This document shows, piece after piece, positions 7,804 through 23,180 of a stretch of DNA of 35,516 nucleotides; positions within the stretch are counted from its first letter, which is position 1; every line of letters starts with the position of its first letter. A program made the position numbers and the translations under genes. A model generated the notes under the pieces. The model worked only from the letters and a program-made list of their open reading frames with translations, was not told where the DNA came from and did no database searches. The stretch is from a virus. The stretch spans positions 1-35,516 of the IMG/VR virus record IMGVR_UViG_3300017767_000047; one strand, given 5' to 3'.

Positions 7804-8229
7804 TTATTGAAAGTTTGCAGGTAAAATAGAACGAAGACCACCAGTTTTTTCACGTCTTCTATCACCAAATCTACGTACAGTTTCTAAAAATTTACTTCTA
7901 TGCATTTGTGATAGTTGCATTGATACAGCAGCTCCTTCTCCCATTTGCGTACCAGTTCTATCCATATATAAACACATTTTTACGTAATCAACTATTGCTA
8001 AATGAAAAGAATTATCTATATCTGGCGTATCTGTTATAGCTGTTACTTTTTTAGGGTCTGCCCAATAATGAAGAACTAATCCATTAGCAACTGCGTGGTC
8101 TAAAGGTTGCCACATTTTTCTATCTGTACGTGATTCTCCACTAGATGAATAAGAAGATGCAACTCCTATTGCATCTCCTTTTAAAAAGTATACTACTCTA
8201 TCTTCTGGAAAATTTATATTACTAGCCAT
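7804..8229 (-). CDS. Probable neck/adaptor-region virion protein
   Basis: The 141-aa product starts MASNINFPEDRVVYFLKGD and ends in a basic stretch, RRFGDRRREKTGGLRSILP. It has no membrane segment. It lies between two adaptor-type genes and the fibre, overlapping the upstream stop by 1 nt (TAATG at 8229). Location and size suit a head-tail connection or tail component, but no named family is recognised. Confidence 0.7.
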   Translation of the reverse strand: MASNINFPEDRVVYFLKGDAIGVASSYSSSGESRTDRKMWQPLDHAVANGLVLHYWADPKKVTAITDTPDIDNSFHLAIVDYVKMCLYMDRTGTQMGEGAAVSMQLSQMHRSKFLETVRRFGDRRREKTGGLRSILPANFQ

Positions 8230-8579
8230 TAATCTGGTTCTTCTATTGCTGGTTCTGGTTCTATCTCAAATACTAAAACTTCTCCATTTAAAAGTCTTGG
8301 TATCTTTATATAATCACCATTACTATCCATAAAATCTACTCTATAAATCTTATTAAGTTCAAGTGCATTACCACTAGAATCATTTGCACTATCTGACAAA
8401 TCATAATACGTTTGACCTGCTACTATATTAATTTTAGCAGACATACTTTTAGTTGAGTATAAACCGCATTCAACTAATGCATCATTTATTAATGACATAA
8501 TGTAAGCTTCTGGTGCATCTGGAAATACCTGACGTACTCTGCTAATTATTTGTTTTACTGTTAATGAATGTACTGCCAT
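8229..8579 (-). CDS. Probable head-tail adaptor-like protein
   Basis: The 116-aa product begins with a helical SLTVKQIISRVRQVFPDAP and INDALVECG, followed by a beta segment INIVAGQTYYDL and LNKIYRVDFMD, and an acidic tail EIEPEPAIEEPD. This order (helix pair, then a Q-x-Y-Y-D-L strand) is usual for phage adaptor/connector-like virion proteins. A strong GCGAGG Shine-Dalgarno precedes its ATG, within the end of the upstream gene. Assignment is by pattern and position. Confidence 0.7.
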   Translation of the reverse strand: MAVHSLTVKQIISRVRQVFPDAPEAYIMSLINDALVECGLYSTKSMSAKINIVAGQTYYDLSDSANDSSGNALELNKIYRVDFMDSNGDYIKIPRLLNGEVLVFEIEPEPAIEEPD

Positions 8580-12844: not shown

Positions 12845-14899
12845 TTAAGATGTCTCGTCATCATCTGGAACTGGACTACCCATACTACCGAGCATAGCAT
12901 CTTGCTGACGTGCGATAGCATTTTGTAATCTTTCCGATTCGAGCCTCACCTTGGTTGTTAGTTCATTGGCATTTATTCTCTTATCAGCTCTAGCGTCTGC
13001 TGCTACATTACCGAGTTTAGATTTAAATTTCTGAACCTCTACTCGTTTTCTGTCTGCAACAGACTCCCTTCGGGCGGTTTGCAAGTCTCCTTGCAATTCT
13101 TTTAATTGTTGTTGTAATTGAGCATTTATTGCTTGTAATTGTTCTATTTCGCCTGTTCTTTGCATTATACCTTCTTTGTCAAATATTTCTGGATTCTTTT
13201 TAAGAACCTCAAGTTTATCAACTATACCCATTTGGTATGCCTCTAAATATACATTAAGTTCTGCATATTTAGAAGTAGGTAACGTAGAACCGGGAACAAT
13301 ACGTATATCGTGTTGCTCAATATTATTTTTATCTTTTTGTATATCGATGATTGTTTGCGTCATATCATCATACATATTTACTGTTACTTCTGTTAAATCA
13401 TTGTTTGGTTGTGCTGTTCTAAAATATTTTTTATACGTATACTGTTGTTTAGACATTGCGTAAATAACACGACCTAATTTTATAATACTATGTTCTACAT
13501 CACGCAACTTTGACTTACTACGTTCAGAACCTAACGCAATCATTTGTTGCGTACCTTTAAATGTTTCAGGTGCTTTATCTGCCATACCGTGCATAATCTC
13601 TGGTATACCAAATATAAAATCTATATAGAACTCACATTGTTGTATTAATCTATAAAACTCTCCTGCTAGTGGAGTAGGAGATGGATAATGTGGTTCTCCT
13701 TGTGAACTATCTACTTCTATAACTGCATTAGGGTTAGCCCAATCACGCTCTAATTGGTCTAGTCCGTTTACTGCACTACCTACAGGTACAAGTAATTTTA
13801 ATCCTGCTGATGCTTGAGCGTGTGATAATGCAAGTGACCATAGTTTATTTAACAATCTTTGCATTGGTAATGCCCTAGATACGTCAGACCTTGGGTAAGG
13901 TGTTTCAGTCCAGTTATTAGGAAAAGCTACAATAGGGTAATCTTTTAAGTTTAATGTGTATTCATCTAATACTATTTCACCACAAGTAACCATTACAGCT
14001 ACTCTTGTTTGTATAAAAGCCTCATATGATAAAAGATTTCTTTCAAAATCACTAGCACGTTCGTCTGAAATAATTAAGAACTCTTCTTCGTTAAGAATAG
14101 ACTCTGCACCTGTTTGATTGTCTATAAGTCTATAAAACGTAACTTTTTTCTTATAAAATCTTTCTAAGACCTGATATTTATTCTCACGATAGTAATCATA
14201 GTCTTTTGTTTCTGATGGTGTATATACATCTCTTGATAGTTTATTTTGAGTATTTGGAAAGTCTTCATCAGAGTATGTAGATATATCATTTAAGATACTA
14301 TCTAGCTCTTCTCCAGTTTCTTTATCTATTGTTGCACCTAATTCAGGGTAGAGGTTTACAAGTTGTTCACCTGTTAAAATAGTAGACAAGATGATTCCAT
14401 CGGCATCGCCAAACCATCTGTCTCTTGATGAAGGAGGAACGTAAACCCTAAAAGGATTGATGTGAACAAATCTTACATCACCTCTACCCATATCAGCTTC
14501 GGCATCAACATATACGTATAAATATCCAATGCCAACGGTTGAAAAATCGTGTATAGCTTGTTTTACTTGAGAGTCTCCATCTGAGCCTTCCCATATAGCT
14601 CCAAGCATTGTTTGCCAAACTTTTGCCATCTTTGCATCGCTATCCTCACGTGGCATAGCAGTAAAGACTGGCGGTCTAGCAGTCATAAATGATTTTAGTT
14701 TTTCTACAGCAGGAGATATTCTATCCATAGGAATATCTGCCTGATTACGTGATTGTAGTTCATCAGACTCATCAGAAGTAAAGTGATTACCTAAGTAAAA
14801 GTCTAAATCCTTACGTGCTTGAGAATCCCAAGAGTCTCTAGCATCTCGCCATCTTTTAAATAATTCTTCGTTATATAATGCTTTTGGGTCGTATTCCAT
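12845..14899 (-). CDS. Portal protein, P22/SU10-like
   Basis: The 684-aa product is the portal. It begins with a helical RWRDARDSWDSQARKDLDFY, then P-M-D-R-I-S-P-A-V-E-K-L-K-S-F-M with R-P-P-V-F at about 60-77, and later INPFRVYVPPSSRDRWFGDA. A clip/stem-type helical region lies near 430-470 (FGIPEIMHGMADKAPETFKG). The C-terminal 120 residues form a long coiled coil (QAINAQLQQQLKELQGDLQ), consistent with a barrel. Size matches large P22-like portals. Its ATG overlaps the terminase stop (TAATG at 14899). Confidence 0.88.
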   Translation of the reverse strand: MEYDPKALYNEELFKRWRDARDSWDSQARKDLDFYLGNHFTSDESDELQSRNQADIPMDRISPAVEKLKSFMTARPPVFTAMPREDSDAKMAKVWQTMLGAIWEGSDGDSQVKQAIHDFSTVGIGYLYVYVDAEADMGRGDVRFVHINPFRVYVPPSSRDRWFGDADGIILSTILTGEQLVNLYPELGATIDKETGEELDSILNDISTYSDEDFPNTQNKLSRDVYTPSETKDYDYYRENKYQVLERFYKKKVTFYRLIDNQTGAESILNEEEFLIISDERASDFERNLLSYEAFIQTRVAVMVTCGEIVLDEYTLNLKDYPIVAFPNNWTETPYPRSDVSRALPMQRLLNKLWSLALSHAQASAGLKLLVPVGSAVNGLDQLERDWANPNAVIEVDSSQGEPHYPSPTPLAGEFYRLIQQCEFYIDFIFGIPEIMHGMADKAPETFKGTQQMIALGSERSKSKLRDVEHSIIKLGRVIYAMSKQQYTYKKYFRTAQPNNDLTEVTVNMYDDMTQTIIDIQKDKNNIEQHDIRIVPGSTLPTSKYAELNVYLEAYQMGIVDKLEVLKKNPEIFDKEGIMQRTGEIEQLQAINAQLQQQLKELQGDLQTARRESVADRKRVEVQKFKSKLGNVAADARADKRINANELTTKVRLESERLQNAIARQQDAMLGSMGSPVPDDDETS

Positions 14900-17569: not shown

Positions 17570-17765
17570 GTTTTTTGTTGATTTATTTCTTTTTGTGTAT
17601 ATATTAATAATATATATATAGATATATAGATATATATAGATATATAAATAATATATAATAATATATTAATACGTAGTATATATATAATATATATAGGAAA
17701 ACTTGAAAAAATTACCCAGCTATGTGTGTCTCCCTTTTATATGCCCCCCACACCCCTGCTTACGT

Positions 17766-17792
17766 AATTACGTTGAAAAAATTACGTTGAAA
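17766..17792. repeat. Tandem 13-nt direct repeat AATTACGTTGAAA
   Basis: Two identical copies of AATTACGTTGAAA lie at 17766-17778 and 17780-17792, a 14-nt period. Further TTACGT elements follow at once (TTTACGTTACGTTTT). Head-to-tail sites of this kind are typical of iterons or cooperative repressor sites. Confidence 0.7.
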
Positions 17793-17820
17793 CTTTTACG
17801 TTACGTTTTATCAGATTAAA

Positions 17821-17968: not shown

Positions 17969-18149
17969 AAGACTATCAAAACAGCGCAACGTTTACGTAA
18001 TTAATATCATAACGTATTATTATTAATTTGGTATTATGGTATTATTGTATTATATTCTTTTATGGCGGAGCCTATAAATATATTAGTTTTAAATAACGTA
18101 AAAATTTCGATAGTGTTACGTATTCACAAAATACCTACGGAGGTAAATT

Positions 18150-18692
18150 ATGGATAAACACGTAACCGCAAAAAAGCCAACTACCATTAAAGGCTATAAA
18201 GTTAATGGTAACAACGTAATCTTGACACCAACACAAATGGAGTCAATGACTGCGAATTATGAACTAATGGGTAATCTACAATTCGATACAATCGAGGCGT
18301 ATATATGTACATTAGTTTCTAATGTGTTAAAATCACATAACGTAACAATAACATCTTTTCAAGTTGGAGCGGATAAAACTGGTTCCAATTCCGATGTTAT
18401 GAATACGTTTTTACAAGAGATTGACAAATTACACAAACAATTTGTTAATGATTGTAAGGGTGAAATATTTTCTATAGATGGAAAATATTTTTGGTTAGAT
18501 GGAAAAAACAAAATGCGTGAATTTAGCGCAACGTTTACAGCGAGAACGCCGGACGGCTACACCGCTACAACGTATCAAGAGCATCTAATCAAAAAAGCTG
18601 AAGCCCTTGGTTTAAACCTAGATAACGAGGTTAAGGACGTTGTCGAAGAAGAAAAAACAGAAGTTGATTCAGAAGTAATCAACGAAATATAA
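18150..18692 (+). CDS. First gene of the rightward (early) operon, unknown function
   Basis: The 180-aa product has no family I recognise. It has a basic N-terminus (MDKHVTAKKPTTIKGYKV), a helical middle (DVMNTFLQEIDKLHKQFV), a beta segment (GEIFSIDGKYFWLDG) and an acidic C-terminal tail with KDVVEEEKTEVDSE. The start is fixed by a strong TACGGAGGTAAA site 2 nt before ATG. That 12-nt site is exactly complementary to an exposed segment of the structured RNA at 19353-19364. First position after the control region suggests an early protein. Confidence 0.75.
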   Translation: MDKHVTAKKPTTIKGYKVNGNNVILTPTQMESMTANYELMGNLQFDTIEAYICTLVSNVLKSHNVTITSFQVGADKTGSNSDVMNTFLQEIDKLHKQFVNDCKGEIFSIDGKYFWLDGKNKMREFSATFTARTPDGYTATTYQEHLIKKAEALGLNLDNEVKDVVEEEKTEVDSEVINEI

Positions 18693-19004: not shown

Positions 19005-19031
19005 CGTACAAAAATTTTTTATCAAAGAAAG

Positions 19032-19047
19032 CTTCGTACTTACGAAG
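19032..19047 (+). other. Perfect small hairpin before the mini-membrane genes
   Basis: CTTCGT (19032-19037) and ACGAAG (19042-19047) pair around ACTT. It lies 36 nt before the ATG at 19083 and may stabilise the leader. With the hairpin at 18991-19004 it makes this 100-nt spacer structured. Confidence 0.4.
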
Positions 19048-19082
19048 TATATAGTAACAAACGTAACTAAAGGAGATACAAT

Positions 19083-19193
19083 ATGTATTCAGTTGAATTA
19101 GTAAAAGTATTTGCTGAACTCTTCGTAATCATTATAGCTATGATGATGGGTTGTTTAGCAACGTTGTCTTATCAAACTTGGAGTAAAAAATGA
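19083..19193 (+). CDS. Mini membrane protein (36 aa)
   Basis: A good AAAGGAGATACAAT ribosome site precedes the ATG. The 36-aa product reads MYSVELVKVFAELFVI, then IIAMMMGCLATLSYQ and ends TWSKK. It has a single transmembrane helix (about residues 8-30). Its TGA overlaps the ATG of the next mini gene (AATGA), so the two are translated together. Such paired small membrane proteins are known as phage modifiers of host membrane functions, but nothing specific can be said here. Confidence 0.65.
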   Translation: MYSVELVKVFAELFVIIIAMMMGCLATLSYQTWSKK

Positions 19194-19309
19194 AGTATTA
19201 CCGCATACTAGAAAAACTAGACCGTATATTTGACTTCCTTGGAAGTGATACTATGTTCTACATTATTACTATTTGGTTCGTACTAATATTTTTATCAATA
19301 TTTATTTAG
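19190..19309 (+). CDS. Second mini membrane protein (39 aa)
   Basis: This 39-aa frame is coupled by a 4-nt ATGA overlap to the preceding mini gene. It starts with an amphipathic, charged MKYYRILEKLDRIFDFLGSD and ends in a C-terminal membrane helix (TMFYIITIWFVLIFLSIFI). The topology differs from its partner, with the helix at the C-terminus, so the two may form a complex. No homologue is recognised. Its stop lies just before the structured RNA at 19311. Confidence 0.62.
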   Translation: MKYYRILEKLDRIFDFLGSDTMFYIITIWFVLIFLSIFI

Positions 19310-19310
19310 G

Positions 19311-19431
19311 ACTCATTACTGCGTGGACTTCGCTAGTTACAACGTAGTAGTGTTTACCTCCGTAAGCGTAGAGCATACCAAGTCTCTCTTCCTTCTTGTA
19401 CTTGGTTGTCAGTCTCTACGCATTTACGTAC
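19311..19431 (+). ncRNA. Structured RNA element with anti-Shine-Dalgarno linker
   Basis: This 121-nt intergenic stretch is about 44% G+C (hand count) against about one third around it, and folds into two domains. Stem A pairs CATTACTGCGT (19314-19324) with ACGTAGTAGTG (19342-19352) with one mismatch and one wobble. Stem B pairs GCGTAGAG (19366-19373) perfectly with CTCTACGC (19414-19421). Inside B, ACCAAGT (19377-19383) pairs perfectly with ACTTGGT (19400-19406) around a pyrimidine-rich 16-nt loop. The single-stranded linker TTTACCTCCGTA (19353-19364) is the exact complement of the ribosome site at 18136-18147. It has no open frame of note and no U tract. It may be a processed sRNA or a cis leader for the gene at 19448. 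Confidence 0.6.
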
Positions 19432-19447
19432 ATAAAGGAATAAACTA

Positions 19448-19909
19448 ATGCAAACATTTTTACCATACGAAAACTTCAAAGAAAGCTTAGACGTATTAGA
19501 TAACAAACGTTTAGGTAAGCAGAGAAGTGAGACGTATCACATACTAAATATATTATTACAACGTACACAAAAGAATGGGTACGCCAATCACCCCATCGTA
19601 CATATGTGGCGAGGCTACGAACCTGCACTACAACAATACTTCAACGTGAATACAGAAGTGTGGTTAGGTCGTGGCTTCCGTCATACAATGGGTTACGAAA
19701 TTATTACAGATGAAATACGTATGCCTGAATGGTTTGGTGACAAAGTATTTCACGCTACTCACAGGTCTAACTTATTACGTAAAGACAGTGGGTACTATTC
19801 AAAGTTTGGATGGAAAGAAAGTTCCGATGTTCCGTACGTGTGGCTTGACCCACAACGTGAGCAATGGTTCTTTATTCATCCGGAAACAAAGAAACGTATG
19901 TATATATAA
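19448..19909 (+). CDS. Pyrimidine-dimer glycosylase-like protein (Pyr_excise/MSMEG_6728-type)
   Basis: The 153-aa product opens MQTFLPYENFKESLDVLDNK followed by R-L-G-K-Q-R-S-E-T and continues with HPIVHMWRGYEPALQQY (residues 48-64) and a V-W-L-G-R-G-F segment. This is the signature of the family related to T4 endonuclease V (pyrimidine dimer DNA glycosylase/AP lyase) and of MSMEG_6728-like proteins. Known members excise UV photoproducts; for the MSMEG_6728 branch the activity is assumed. The start is supported by AAAGGA 7 nt upstream. A repair role for a sunlit-water phage fits. Confidence 0.75.
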   Translation: MQTFLPYENFKESLDVLDNKRLGKQRSETYHILNILLQRTQKNGYANHPIVHMWRGYEPALQQYFNVNTEVWLGRGFRHTMGYEIITDEIRMPEWFGDKVFHATHRSNLLRKDSGYYSKFGWKESSDVPYVWLDPQREQWFFIHPETKKRMYI

Positions 19910-19941
19910 ATGCATACTTAATTAACAAACAGGAGGGACGT

Positions 19942-22044
19942 ATGTCCGAAACAAAAAAACCTAGCTTTCATCAGCAGTTAAATGATGTAGGTTATTTTTG
20001 TACAGAAGAGTTCGCTGACGTAGTCGAGAACGCTTTGCACAAAAAACCTATGTCAATTACAATGTTGAAAGGGAAAGCAGGTACGGGGAAATCATATCTA
20101 CCCGAAAAGATAGCTGAGATACTTGGATGTAATATCTACGTAAAACAAGCGGCTAAAGATTTCGATTGGTATGACTTCGTACAAAACTATATACCCGATG
20201 AAAACGCAAAGTCAGGTATTGTTGCAAAAGATTCTGAACTGCTACTTGCAGTAAAAGAATCAAAAGATAAACGTGTAGTATTGTTGCTTGACGAATGGGA
20301 TAAGACGCAACATTCTGCTGATGGTATGTTCTTAGAGTTCTTACAGACTGGACGTATCAGCGTTAAAGGTGAAGAGTTCAAAGCTAACTTAGATAATCTT
20401 ATCATATTCTTTACGGGTAATGATGACAGATTATTTTCAGAGCCATTCATTAGACGTATGAAGTTTATTGAAGTGGAACATATGCCACCTAATCTAATAC
20501 TGCAAATACTTCAGAGTAAGTATAAAGGTAATAAGGACGCAGAGAAAATGTTCAATGCCGTACTTAATCTTTACAATACATCTATCTTAGCAGACTTAGA
20601 TAAACCTGCTACGGTACAAGAACTTTGTGACGTAATCAATGATTGGGTACGATACAAACGTAAAGGTAAAAGTCCAAGGTGGGAAGAACTTGTATATCAA
20701 AACGTAACTAAGACTAGAGAAAATCATAATGAGTTACAACGTGCGCTTGAATCTATCAAGAACGGAGAACTTCGTAATGAGTCAGAGTTTAGCAAGGCAC
20801 TAGATGTTACGTATTTTGATAAACAAGCTGAAGTAGAAGCTGAAACTATATCTAATGGTTTTGGTTCTGCCCCACGTATGATGGAGATACTAGGTATTAA
20901 TACTGAATTTGGTACAGATGAAAATGATGGTGAAGTTTACGCAGAGTTTCAACGTGATGATGCTGTATACACCAATGCTTACGAAGATGCCATAAATAAT
21001 GATGAAGACATAAGTCAACCTCATTTTGTATCTTGGTATACAGTACGTGATTCTAGTATTGAACGTTCAAAGTCATATGATTTACGTGAGATAGTAGAAG
21101 AACAGATGAAGTTTAGAAGACTGCGAAACTCAGATGGTACGTTAGTTTTTACTGAACCTAACGCAGGTAAAGCTGATGTTGCAGACTTCCTTGAATTAAC
21201 TGAGTCAGATGCATACATACGTAAAGCTACTAACAATGAAATAATATTCAGAGTTACTTCACGTGGACGTACTAGGAATCATCAGAACAGTATAGAGTAT
21301 AATGCAAGATGGACTAAGGAAAATGGATGTGAGTTTATTGTGCCTACGAATGCGTTAGACTTGTTTACAGATACAATAAAGTCTGTAGATTGGTACTCAG
21401 ATGGTGATTATAGATTACGTTTAGATAATATATGTCTTGACTTAATGGGTAATCATATCAGTACAAACAAGTATGTTAACGTAAGAACGTTAGGTAACTC
21501 CGATAAATTACTTGATGTAATAGTAGCTGGAGAAAGACGTTCTAATGATGAGTTGTCGTACCATATGATGATGTACAAAAGTAAATCAGCAAAAATCAAA
21601 GAGACTAAACGTACTACTACATACGACTTAGGTTGGGCAGTTGTACGCTCTTGGCATCTCAAAGACAAACCTAACTACAAGAATCACGTAGTGATTAAAC
21701 GCTCACCTAATATAGATTCTAGTAAAAGCACACTTGCTTTGCAGGTTACGTTTCTACAAAAGAAGTTAGGATGTCAGACAATACCTTTGTTCGTAAATAT
21801 GAATAAAGATTTGTATCTCAAGATGCCTACGGTAGCTGAAGGTGGTAAGTGGAAAATTGGTAGGTCAACACGTGTAATGGAAGATACATCTAATAAGTTG
21901 TTGAACATCTATTGCGTAAATACATTTGACAATACAACGTTTGTTGCTATGCTTAAAAAAGATGAGACAAACATTGGTGACCTTATAGATTGGCGTAAGC
22001 ATATGTTATTTACACGTAAAAAGATGGAGGAAACTAACGTATGA
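19942..22044 (+). CDS. MoxR/CobS-type AAA+ ATPase
   Basis: The start is the ATG at 19942, preceded by a strong AGGAGGG, giving 700 residues; a longer frame exists upstream but overlaps the previous gene. The AAA+ core occupies about residues 20-260: Walker A G-K-A-G-T-G-K-S (44-51), Walker B V-V-L-L-L-D-E (112-118), sensor 1 I-I-F-F-T-G-N (154-160), and arginine-finger candidates R171/R172 in E-P-F-I-R-R-M. The remaining 440 residues are a large unassigned mixed alpha/beta region. The next gene, overlapping by 4 nt, encodes a VWA-type partner. Such pairs act as ATP-driven remodelling or metal-insertion machines. Confidence 0.85.
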   Translation: MSETKKPSFHQQLNDVGYFCTEEFADVVENALHKKPMSITMLKGKAGTGKSYLPEKIAEILGCNIYVKQAAKDFDWYDFVQNYIPDENAKSGIVAKDSELLLAVKESKDKRVVLLLDEWDKTQHSADGMFLEFLQTGRISVKGEEFKANLDNLIIFFTGNDDRLFSEPFIRRMKFIEVEHMPPNLILQILQSKYKGNKDAEKMFNAVLNLYNTSILADLDKPATVQELCDVINDWVRYKRKGKSPRWEELVYQNVTKTRENHNELQRALESIKNGELRNESEFSKALDVTYFDKQAEVEAETISNGFGSAPRMMEILGINTEFGTDENDGEVYAEFQRDDAVYTNAYEDAINNDEDISQPHFVSWYTVRDSSIERSKSYDLREIVEEQMKFRRLRNSDGTLVFTEPNAGKADVADFLELTESDAYIRKATNNEIIFRVTSRGRTRNHQNSIEYNARWTKENGCEFIVPTNALDLFTDTIKSVDWYSDGDYRLRLDNICLDLMGNHISTNKYVNVRTLGNSDKLLDVIVAGERRSNDELSYHMMMYKSKSAKIKETKRTTTYDLGWAVVRSWHLKDKPNYKNHVVIKRSPNIDSSKSTLALQVTFLQKKLGCQTIPLFVNMNKDLYLKMPTVAEGGKWKIGRSTRVMEDTSNKLLNIYCVNTFDNTTFVAMLKKDETNIGDLIDWRKHMLFTRKKMEETNV

Positions 22045-23180
22045 ATAATATAAATCCGTCTTGGTCGCAATGGAAATTAGGAGATACTCCAGAGATTGAA
22101 CGTTCTGAGCAAGAAGAACCTCCTGTTCAAAATAAAAACGAAGCTCAGAATGATGAGATGGCAGACGTAAAGTCTGCCATCGATTCACATAATTCTGATA
22201 TAGATAATCAATATCAAAGTTATGAGAAGCCAGTAGATACAGCTACGTTACGTAAGGAAATGTACAACTACGAAGACCAATTAATAGAAGAAGATTTAGA
22301 TAAGGTCATTAAGAACTTACAACGTAAGACACCTACGAAACTTATAGATACAGATGATGAATTTAAATTAGACTTAAATAAATTTGATGATAGTAATGAC
22401 ACGTACAAAGTTGTAAACGTTGCGAGTAGTGCTACAAAAACACGAGAGTTAAAACGTGTGCCTATTGAAAGGCTACAAAGCAATCGTAGACAAGCTAAAA
22501 ATAATTTAGAACAACGTGATTGGAAAATAAATACGCAACAGGCACAAAGTGAGTTTTCTTTTGAGGCATTACAAAATCGTAAGCTATCTTCAAACTTAGC
22601 ATTACTATTTAGTAGGATAGCAGAGGAACGTACAGGTGATAAGATTGCAGGTAGGCACAAATGGGATATAGAAAAGATTATGTTTAGACGTGTATCTAAA
22701 AAACTTATTACGCAATGTAAGTACTCACGTGATAAAGAAAAGATTATTATATTACTTGATAGCAGTCCTTCGTGTAGTAGGATGGCAAATTTATATAGTC
22801 AAATATCTACAGAGGCTTGTAAGTATGACCACGTAGAACTATATGATGCTCCGAATGGTTACATACATAGTAAGTATTCAATATCTGAGAAGAAGTATGT
22901 ACCGCTTACAGATGAACAACTTGATAACGTATACTATTGGTTAGGCTTTGAAGGTAGAACTATAATATACTTTGGTGATGAAGATGCTACGTCAAGTATG
23001 TACAAGGCTTACAAATATAGTGAGATACATTGGTTCTATCAGAATCCAAGTAGTCATCAAAATAAAATACAGAGACAGTATACACTTGAAAGATTGCACG
23101 AAGAGTGGGATGACAAGCTAAAAATTTATGAGTGTAGTAACGTAAACGAAATAGTAAAAGCAGTAAAGGAAATGAAATGA
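22041..23180 (+). CDS. VWA-domain (CobT/MoxR-partner-like) protein
   Basis: The 379-aa product has an acidic, low-complexity N-terminus (about 1-125) and a basic linker. A C-terminal von Willebrand A-like domain begins near residue 230. Its MIDAS motif is K-I-I-I-L-L-D-S-S-P-S at 234-244 (D-x-S-x-S), with a later F-G-D-E-D-A-T that may provide the other metal ligands. A preceding GRHKWDIEKIMFRRVSKKL resembles the CobT linker. The ATG overlaps the AAA+ stop (ATGA), supporting a stoichiometric pair. CobT proteins bind metal and substrate while the AAA+ ring hydrolyses ATP. Confidence 0.78.
   Translation: MNNINPSWSQWKLGDTPEIERSEQEEPPVQNKNEAQNDEMADVKSAIDSHNSDIDNQYQSYEKPVDTATLRKEMYNYEDQLIEEDLDKVIKNLQRKTPTKLIDTDDEFKLDLNKFDDSNDTYKVVNVASSATKTRELKRVPIERLQSNRRQAKNNLEQRDWKINTQQAQSEFSFEALQNRKLSSNLALLFSRIAEERTGDKIAGRHKWDIEKIMFRRVSKKLITQCKYSRDKEKIIILLDSSPSCSRMANLYSQISTEACKYDHVELYDAPNGYIHSKYSISEKKYVPLTDEQLDNVYYWLGFEGRTIIYFGDEDATSSMYKAYKYSEIHWFYQNPSSHQNKIQRQYTLERLHEEWDDKLKIYECSNVNEIVKAVKEMK

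Follow-up and report, generated by a model that had tools for sequence, protein, structure and literature searches.

The window is the 35.5-kb record of an uncultured bacterial virus, whose genes include those for a phage portal, a terminase and an SU10-type capsid. Its spacer at positions 19311-19431 specifies a genuine structured RNA that, to judge from its conservation across related viral contigs, is selected for both its fold and its loop sequences. An earlier note on this DNA had called it an undescribed structured RNA, and that description holds: the structure covaries, the loops are near-invariant, and neither Rfam nor the GenBank phages contain a match. The functions that the note had suggested, a phage sRNA or a leader riboregulator, are no more than possibilities. 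New relative to that note is that UUUACCUCCGUA, where the two hairpins meet, shows complementarity to the first early gene's ribosome-binding site (RBS). From this complementarity and an analogy with phage c4 RNA, we tentatively propose a C4-like antisense element that may control the first early gene from within the early operon, a reading that we favour over its rivals but consider short of probable.

Setting and fold of the spacer RNA

The spacer sits inside a rightward early operon that begins at about position 18150. As the earlier note had described, two mini membrane genes lie on its upstream side and a DNA-repair-like gene on its downstream side; the genes referred to below are the following.

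18150-18692, plus strand: first early gene, the first of the rightward operon (ATG at 18150, 180 aa), conserved in all carriers of the element
19083-19193, plus strand: mini membrane ORF 1 (36 aa), with a similar ORF in L082/L083
19190-19309, plus strand: mini membrane ORF 2 (39 aa), whose stop codon abuts the RNA element
19448-19909, plus strand: pyrimidine-dimer DNA glycosylase gene (Pyr_excise; PF03013, E 2.8e-19), the downstream neighbour
19942-22044, plus strand: AAA+ ATPase gene (MoxR/CobS-like), next downstream, which served to find distant relatives

The product of the first early gene has only weak PHROG matches; a model of its structure (pLDDT 53) is too poor for use. The AAA+ ATPase gene is followed by a gene for 379 aa with a DSSPS motif resembling a VWA metal site (19942-23180 for the two together); this second gene has no Pfam match, and by sequence the two are possibly a CobS/CobT (MoxR-VWA)-like pair. 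Two smaller features were also observed: a small hairpin, CUUCGUACUUACGAAG, ahead of mini membrane ORF 1 (19030-19048) that is mostly retained in L082/L083, and a set of recurring motifs similar to TTACGTTGAAAAAATTACGTTGAAAC within the divergent, AT-rich intergenic region (17763-17800), which are possibly iterons or promoter-related.

RNA folding, a check that the earlier note had suggested, gives the spacer a minimum free energy of -38.3 kcal/mol, compared with -23.3 ± 3.1 kcal/mol for 200 shuffles (z -4.78), and predicts two hairpins. The strong fold is confined to the sense strand, the reverse strand being unremarkable (z -1.0). A coarse z-scan of fold energy covered the early arm. Two coding windows in this arm fold as strongly as the spacer (19801-19920, z -5.7; 22141-22260, z -4.7); folding energy by itself is therefore not decisive. 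Both stems named in the earlier note are present, CAUUACUGCGU/ACGUAGUAGUG and GCGUAGAG/CUCUACGC, the latter with internal ACCAAGU/ACUUGGU. The parts of the element are listed here.

19308-19428, plus strand: structured RNA element of about 125 bases, with two hairpins and an outer P0 pairing, defined by folding, conservation in six viral contigs and covariation
19308-19310, plus strand: 5′ side of P0, AGG in all carriers, which pairs with CCU at 19357-19359 and overlaps the TAG stop of mini membrane ORF 2
19313-19353, plus strand: hairpin 1, with stem 19313-19324/19342-19353 and inner stem 19326-19329/19335-19338
19353-19364, plus strand: inter-hairpin segment UUUACCUCCGUA, with an anti-Shine-Dalgarno (anti-SD) CCUCC at 19357-19361; 12-nt perfect complement of 18136-18147
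19361-19428, plus strand: hairpin 2, with lower stem 19361-19374/19412-19428, an asymmetric internal loop and upper stem 19377-19383/19400-19406

With P0 counted, hairpin 1 extends over 19308-19359 and hairpin 2 over 19361-19428, and C19360 is predicted to be the only clearly free base between them. The perfect anti-SD that the earlier note had placed in a single-stranded linker is thus real as a sequence, but it is mostly paired, because CCU 19357-19359 pairs with the upstream AGG. An intrinsic terminator was considered and rejected, since there is no U tract; the element was also not called as one.

Conservation, covariation and known RNA families

The element occupies the same place between the same neighbours in six viral contigs that represent only two clades (the window, L002/L086, L087, L082/L088, L083/L089 and L084/L085). 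Whether IMG/VR was scanned with the glycosylase, with the AAA gene, with the first early gene or with two DNA patterns, the carriers were identical; the patterns, which describe hairpin 1 and the junction, recovered the known carriers together with one new one (L087), and the remaining junction matches are attributable to chance. No further member was found at the other 79 glycosylase loci or among some 80 terminase relatives, many of whose contigs are not long enough to include this position, nor by a covariance model (R1) applied to 16 whole records and some 1.2 Mb of related loci.

RNAalifold places 37 pairs in the alignment of the element. In the pair count, 96.2% of cells are paired; two-sided changes affect 8 pairs (13 cells), 4 of them in hairpin 1 (91.7% of cells paired) and 4 among the 21 pairs of hairpin 2. 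Slid controls, in which the 3′ partners were shifted, are 28-38% paired and have two-sided changes in 0-1 pairs and 0-2 cells. The covariation in homologues for which the earlier note had proposed to look is therefore present, and it is this covariation that establishes selection on structure. Between the clades, 18 of 73 paired positions changed, mostly with compensation, compared with 2 of 39 unpaired positions; in the neighbouring genes, divergence at fourfold codon sites is about 32%. The apical UGGACUUCGCUAGUU(A/G)CAAC of hairpin 1 is nearly invariant, and UCUUCCUUCUUGU in the pyrimidine loop of hairpin 2 (19384-19399) is invariant. Compensated change in the stems combined with almost fixed loops is the hallmark of a functional RNA in which the loop sequences matter.

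A translated peptide would be another way to explain the conservation. The statement in the earlier note that the spacer contains no gene is borne out insofar as no convincing gene is present, but a 41-codon ORF with a GTG start (19323-19448) does overlap the element. This frame is open in both clades, and its stop overlaps the glycosylase start as TAATG despite indels. However, its changes fall mostly at codon positions 1 and 2 (5,2,2; 4,0,1; 4,3,2 for positions 1,2,3) and a 4-nt indel shifts the frame of its second half; the peptide-coding reading was rejected on the substitution pattern and is extremely improbable.

The spacer has no match above the gathering threshold in Rfam 15, only noise at E ≤ 10, and a tRNA search found none, in keeping with the earlier note's description of it as not tRNA-like and free of a U tract. 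GenBank phages gave no match to the locus by DNA or to the AAA and portal genes by protein. The pattern of the element has five matches in 84,980 species genomes, all without wider similarity and at chance level. Cuckoo RNAs are alphaproteobacterial sRNAs with two stem-loops that carry the anti-SD CCUCCUCCC in both loops. The present element resembles them in having two stem-loops and anti-SD segments, but these lie at the junction and in one loop and are not CCUCCUCCC in both. An sRNA that acts in trans on host mRNAs through such segments, as in the cuckoo RNA family (named in PMC10746234), would be consistent with the invariance of CCUCC and CUUCCUUC, the two anti-SD-like segments. Nevertheless, no promoter or terminator marking an independent transcript of the element was found, Rfam has no match to it and the species genomes hold nothing beyond chance matches, and we regard this activity as highly improbable.

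The junction segment and the first early RBS

The site with which the junction segment would pair lies 1.2 kb upstream.

18136-18147, plus strand: RBS UACGGAGGUAAA of the first early gene, the candidate target, with the best duplex energy among 109 start sites

In the window, the complementarity between the junction (19353-19364) and this RBS is perfect over 12 nt, and it is found in all carriers; in L002 it consists of 10 nt and 5 nt separated by a single bulged base, and in L082, L083 and L087 of 9 nt. The duplex energy of the first early gene RBS is -20.1 in the window (next start site, -14.2) and -22.2 in L002, where it again ranks 1 of 109 (next, -15.0). When all 30-nt positions on both strands are considered, self aside, this RBS is in the top 4 in all six contigs, and the linker sequence of a genome itself is the best or joint-best partner for 4 of 5 RBSs. 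The best predicted partner of the linker anti-SD is the first early gene RBS, not that of the adjacent glycosylase gene. The first early gene has a very strong Shine-Dalgarno sequence (GGAGG), and any CCUCC would favour such a site. With CCUCC held fixed, per-genome p values are 0.002-0.022 against shuffled flanks and 0.001-0.03 against natural CCTCC segments (n=1,011), or 0.01 and 0.004, respectively, for the window alone; these values are not independent, because the target was picked after viewing all RBSs and the six sequences amount to two clades. We consider the complementarity to be suggestive evidence for an antisense function. Loops 1 and 2 were likewise evaluated as RBS antisense and rejected, the first early gene ranking 50 and 42 of 109, respectively.

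In the mechanism that we propose, UUUACCUCCGUA would act post-transcriptionally by pairing with the first early gene RBS, and translation of that gene would drop once transcription reaches the element. The pairing could take place in trans, once the RNA has been freed from the operon transcript, or in cis on a single mRNA. We infer three things here: a discrete or accessible form of the RNA, its pairing inside the cell, and a repressive outcome. Opening 9-12 nt of the linker is calculated to cost 5-8 kcal/mol (for linker coordinates that start one base early), because the predicted fold pairs CCU with AGG and places CGUA within hairpin 2, and opening the RBS costs about 7 kcal/mol more. As both openings cost energy, the net gain from pairing would be modest.

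The closest parallel is c4 of phages P1 and P7 (RF01695), a phage antisense RNA that blocks translation and that, like the present element, is a structured phage RNA with short segments complementary to an RBS region (PMC12197685). The complementarity found here (12 nt, rank 1 of 109) is to the RBS region of a gene of the same operon, although the RF01695 covariance model gives no match, either by gathering score or at E ≤ 10. The arrangement also differs, in that the complementary segment of the present element is at the junction of two hairpins. Moreover, c4 lies upstream of its target gene, whereas this element is downstream of its proposed target.

The same position in more distant relatives

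Three more distant relatives, L118 and L122 (terminase about 83% identical) and L187 (found via the AAA gene), keep the membrane mini-ORF, but no glycosylase gene separates it from the AAA gene. Tandem hairpins, 1-3 nt apart and with z of -4.5 to -7.6, stand there instead and have no detectable sequence similarity to the window element. In L122/L187 it is the loops that vary and the stems that hardly change, opposite to the window clade, and these hairpins may therefore be analogues and not homologues. Collectively, the tandem hairpins of the relatives argue for a role in the operon as such and against one tied to the glycosylase.

These relatives bear on the possibility of a cis-acting leader (riboregulator or riboswitch) of the glycosylase gene, in which the pyrimidine loop or the linker would mask the downstream AAGGA Shine-Dalgarno. 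The element ends 19 nt 5′ of the glycosylase start codon, and loop 2 is complementary over 6 nt to AAGGAA in the window. The complement is, however, shorter in L002 and L082, which share the loop 2 sequence but vary in the Shine-Dalgarno, and the glycosylase Shine-Dalgarno is unpaired in the predicted fold. Such a role is further weakened by L118 and L122, which lack the gene but retain tandem hairpins here, and by L182, in which the gene is present and the element absent; we consider it very unlikely.

Unrelated tandem hairpins at one position (L118 and L122/L187) would fit a need for structure over sequence, as expected of an intercistronic processing or 3′-end element at which host RNase III cuts the hairpins, or exonucleases are blocked, and mRNA boundaries and stability are set as at the early R sites of T7. 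The T7 R1.1 site is a 49-nt irregular stem that is cut once (PMC8708148). Hairpin 2, a long irregular intercistronic stem of 21 pairs with an asymmetric internal loop in an early operon, resembles it, and hairpin 1 abuts the stop codon of the upstream membrane mini-gene. The present element differs from R1.1 in having two hairpins and near-invariant loops; in the window clade the loops are most conserved and the stems variable, and a generic double-stranded substrate needs no such loops. We regard a processing or 3′-end role as unlikely, but as a serious rival to the antisense reading.

Tandem hairpins in an early operon are also reminiscent of HK022 put, two stem-loops of about 70 nt near early promoters (PMC9378689). 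The put RNA binds the zinc-binding domain of the β′ subunit of RNA polymerase. A put-like antiterminator, in which the nascent two-hairpin RNA would bind RNA polymerase and allow read-through of downstream early-operon terminators, is consistent with the two adjacent stem-loops and the predicted single, or nearly single, unpaired base at their junction, with the 1-3-nt spacing of the hairpins in L118 and L187, and with the lack of a U tract. By contrast with put, the element is about 125 nt rather than 70 and lies about 1.2 kb into the operon, and a terminator scan of the whole arm identified one plus-strand terminator-like site only, at the end of the arm. We view this function as decidedly unlikely, though still as a serious rival.

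The antisense reading was also examined in distant relatives with hairpins, where the first early gene RBS ranks 24 of 50 (L131), 29 of 55 (L140), 39 of 65 (L122) and 9 of 47 (L162), a negative outcome. L118 is a possible exception at rank 2 of 41; its tandem hairpin (8155-8274, reverse-complement coordinates) contains UCCAUCCU, which is complementary to the AGGAUGGA Shine-Dalgarno of the L118 first early gene.

Several other features of these genomes were recorded. L131 (about 14515-14615) and L140 (about 14505-14605; both in reverse-complement coordinates) have a long hairpin overlapping a stop codon, with CCUCC kept in a large unpaired and otherwise diverged loop, which is possibly another anti-SD-presenting RNA. 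Strong intrinsic terminators (a GC hairpin followed by 6-7 T) lie directly 3′ of the first early gene in L131, L140, L162, L182 and L183 and are absent in the window. GATC is nearly absent from the window (1 site vs about 103 expected), L083 (0 vs 24), L002 (1 vs 17), L131 (0 vs 55) and L140 (0 vs 54), compared with 43 of 66 expected in L122, and GANTC is not avoided; this pattern points to a GATC restriction system or a Dam-type system of the host in part of the group. At 6108-7109 of L118, beside the terminase genes, lies a gene whose sequence motif marks it as a probable C5 cytosine DNA methyltransferase.

Uncultured phages have so far yielded few structured RNAs for which a concrete target can be named and tested. 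In its broadest and most speculative form, which we consider unlikely, the antisense proposal would make the junction a dedicated antisense to the first RBS of the operon and a protein-free shut-off timer, within a wider uncultured phage group that keeps re-inventing structured RNAs at this position. Should the element prove to be a processing or antitermination element instead, it would still represent a covariation-supported RNA motif of phage early operons that is missing from Rfam. Pairing with the RBS, if true, would provide early phage translation with a minimal feedback timer and would make the element a translation switch that can be reused.
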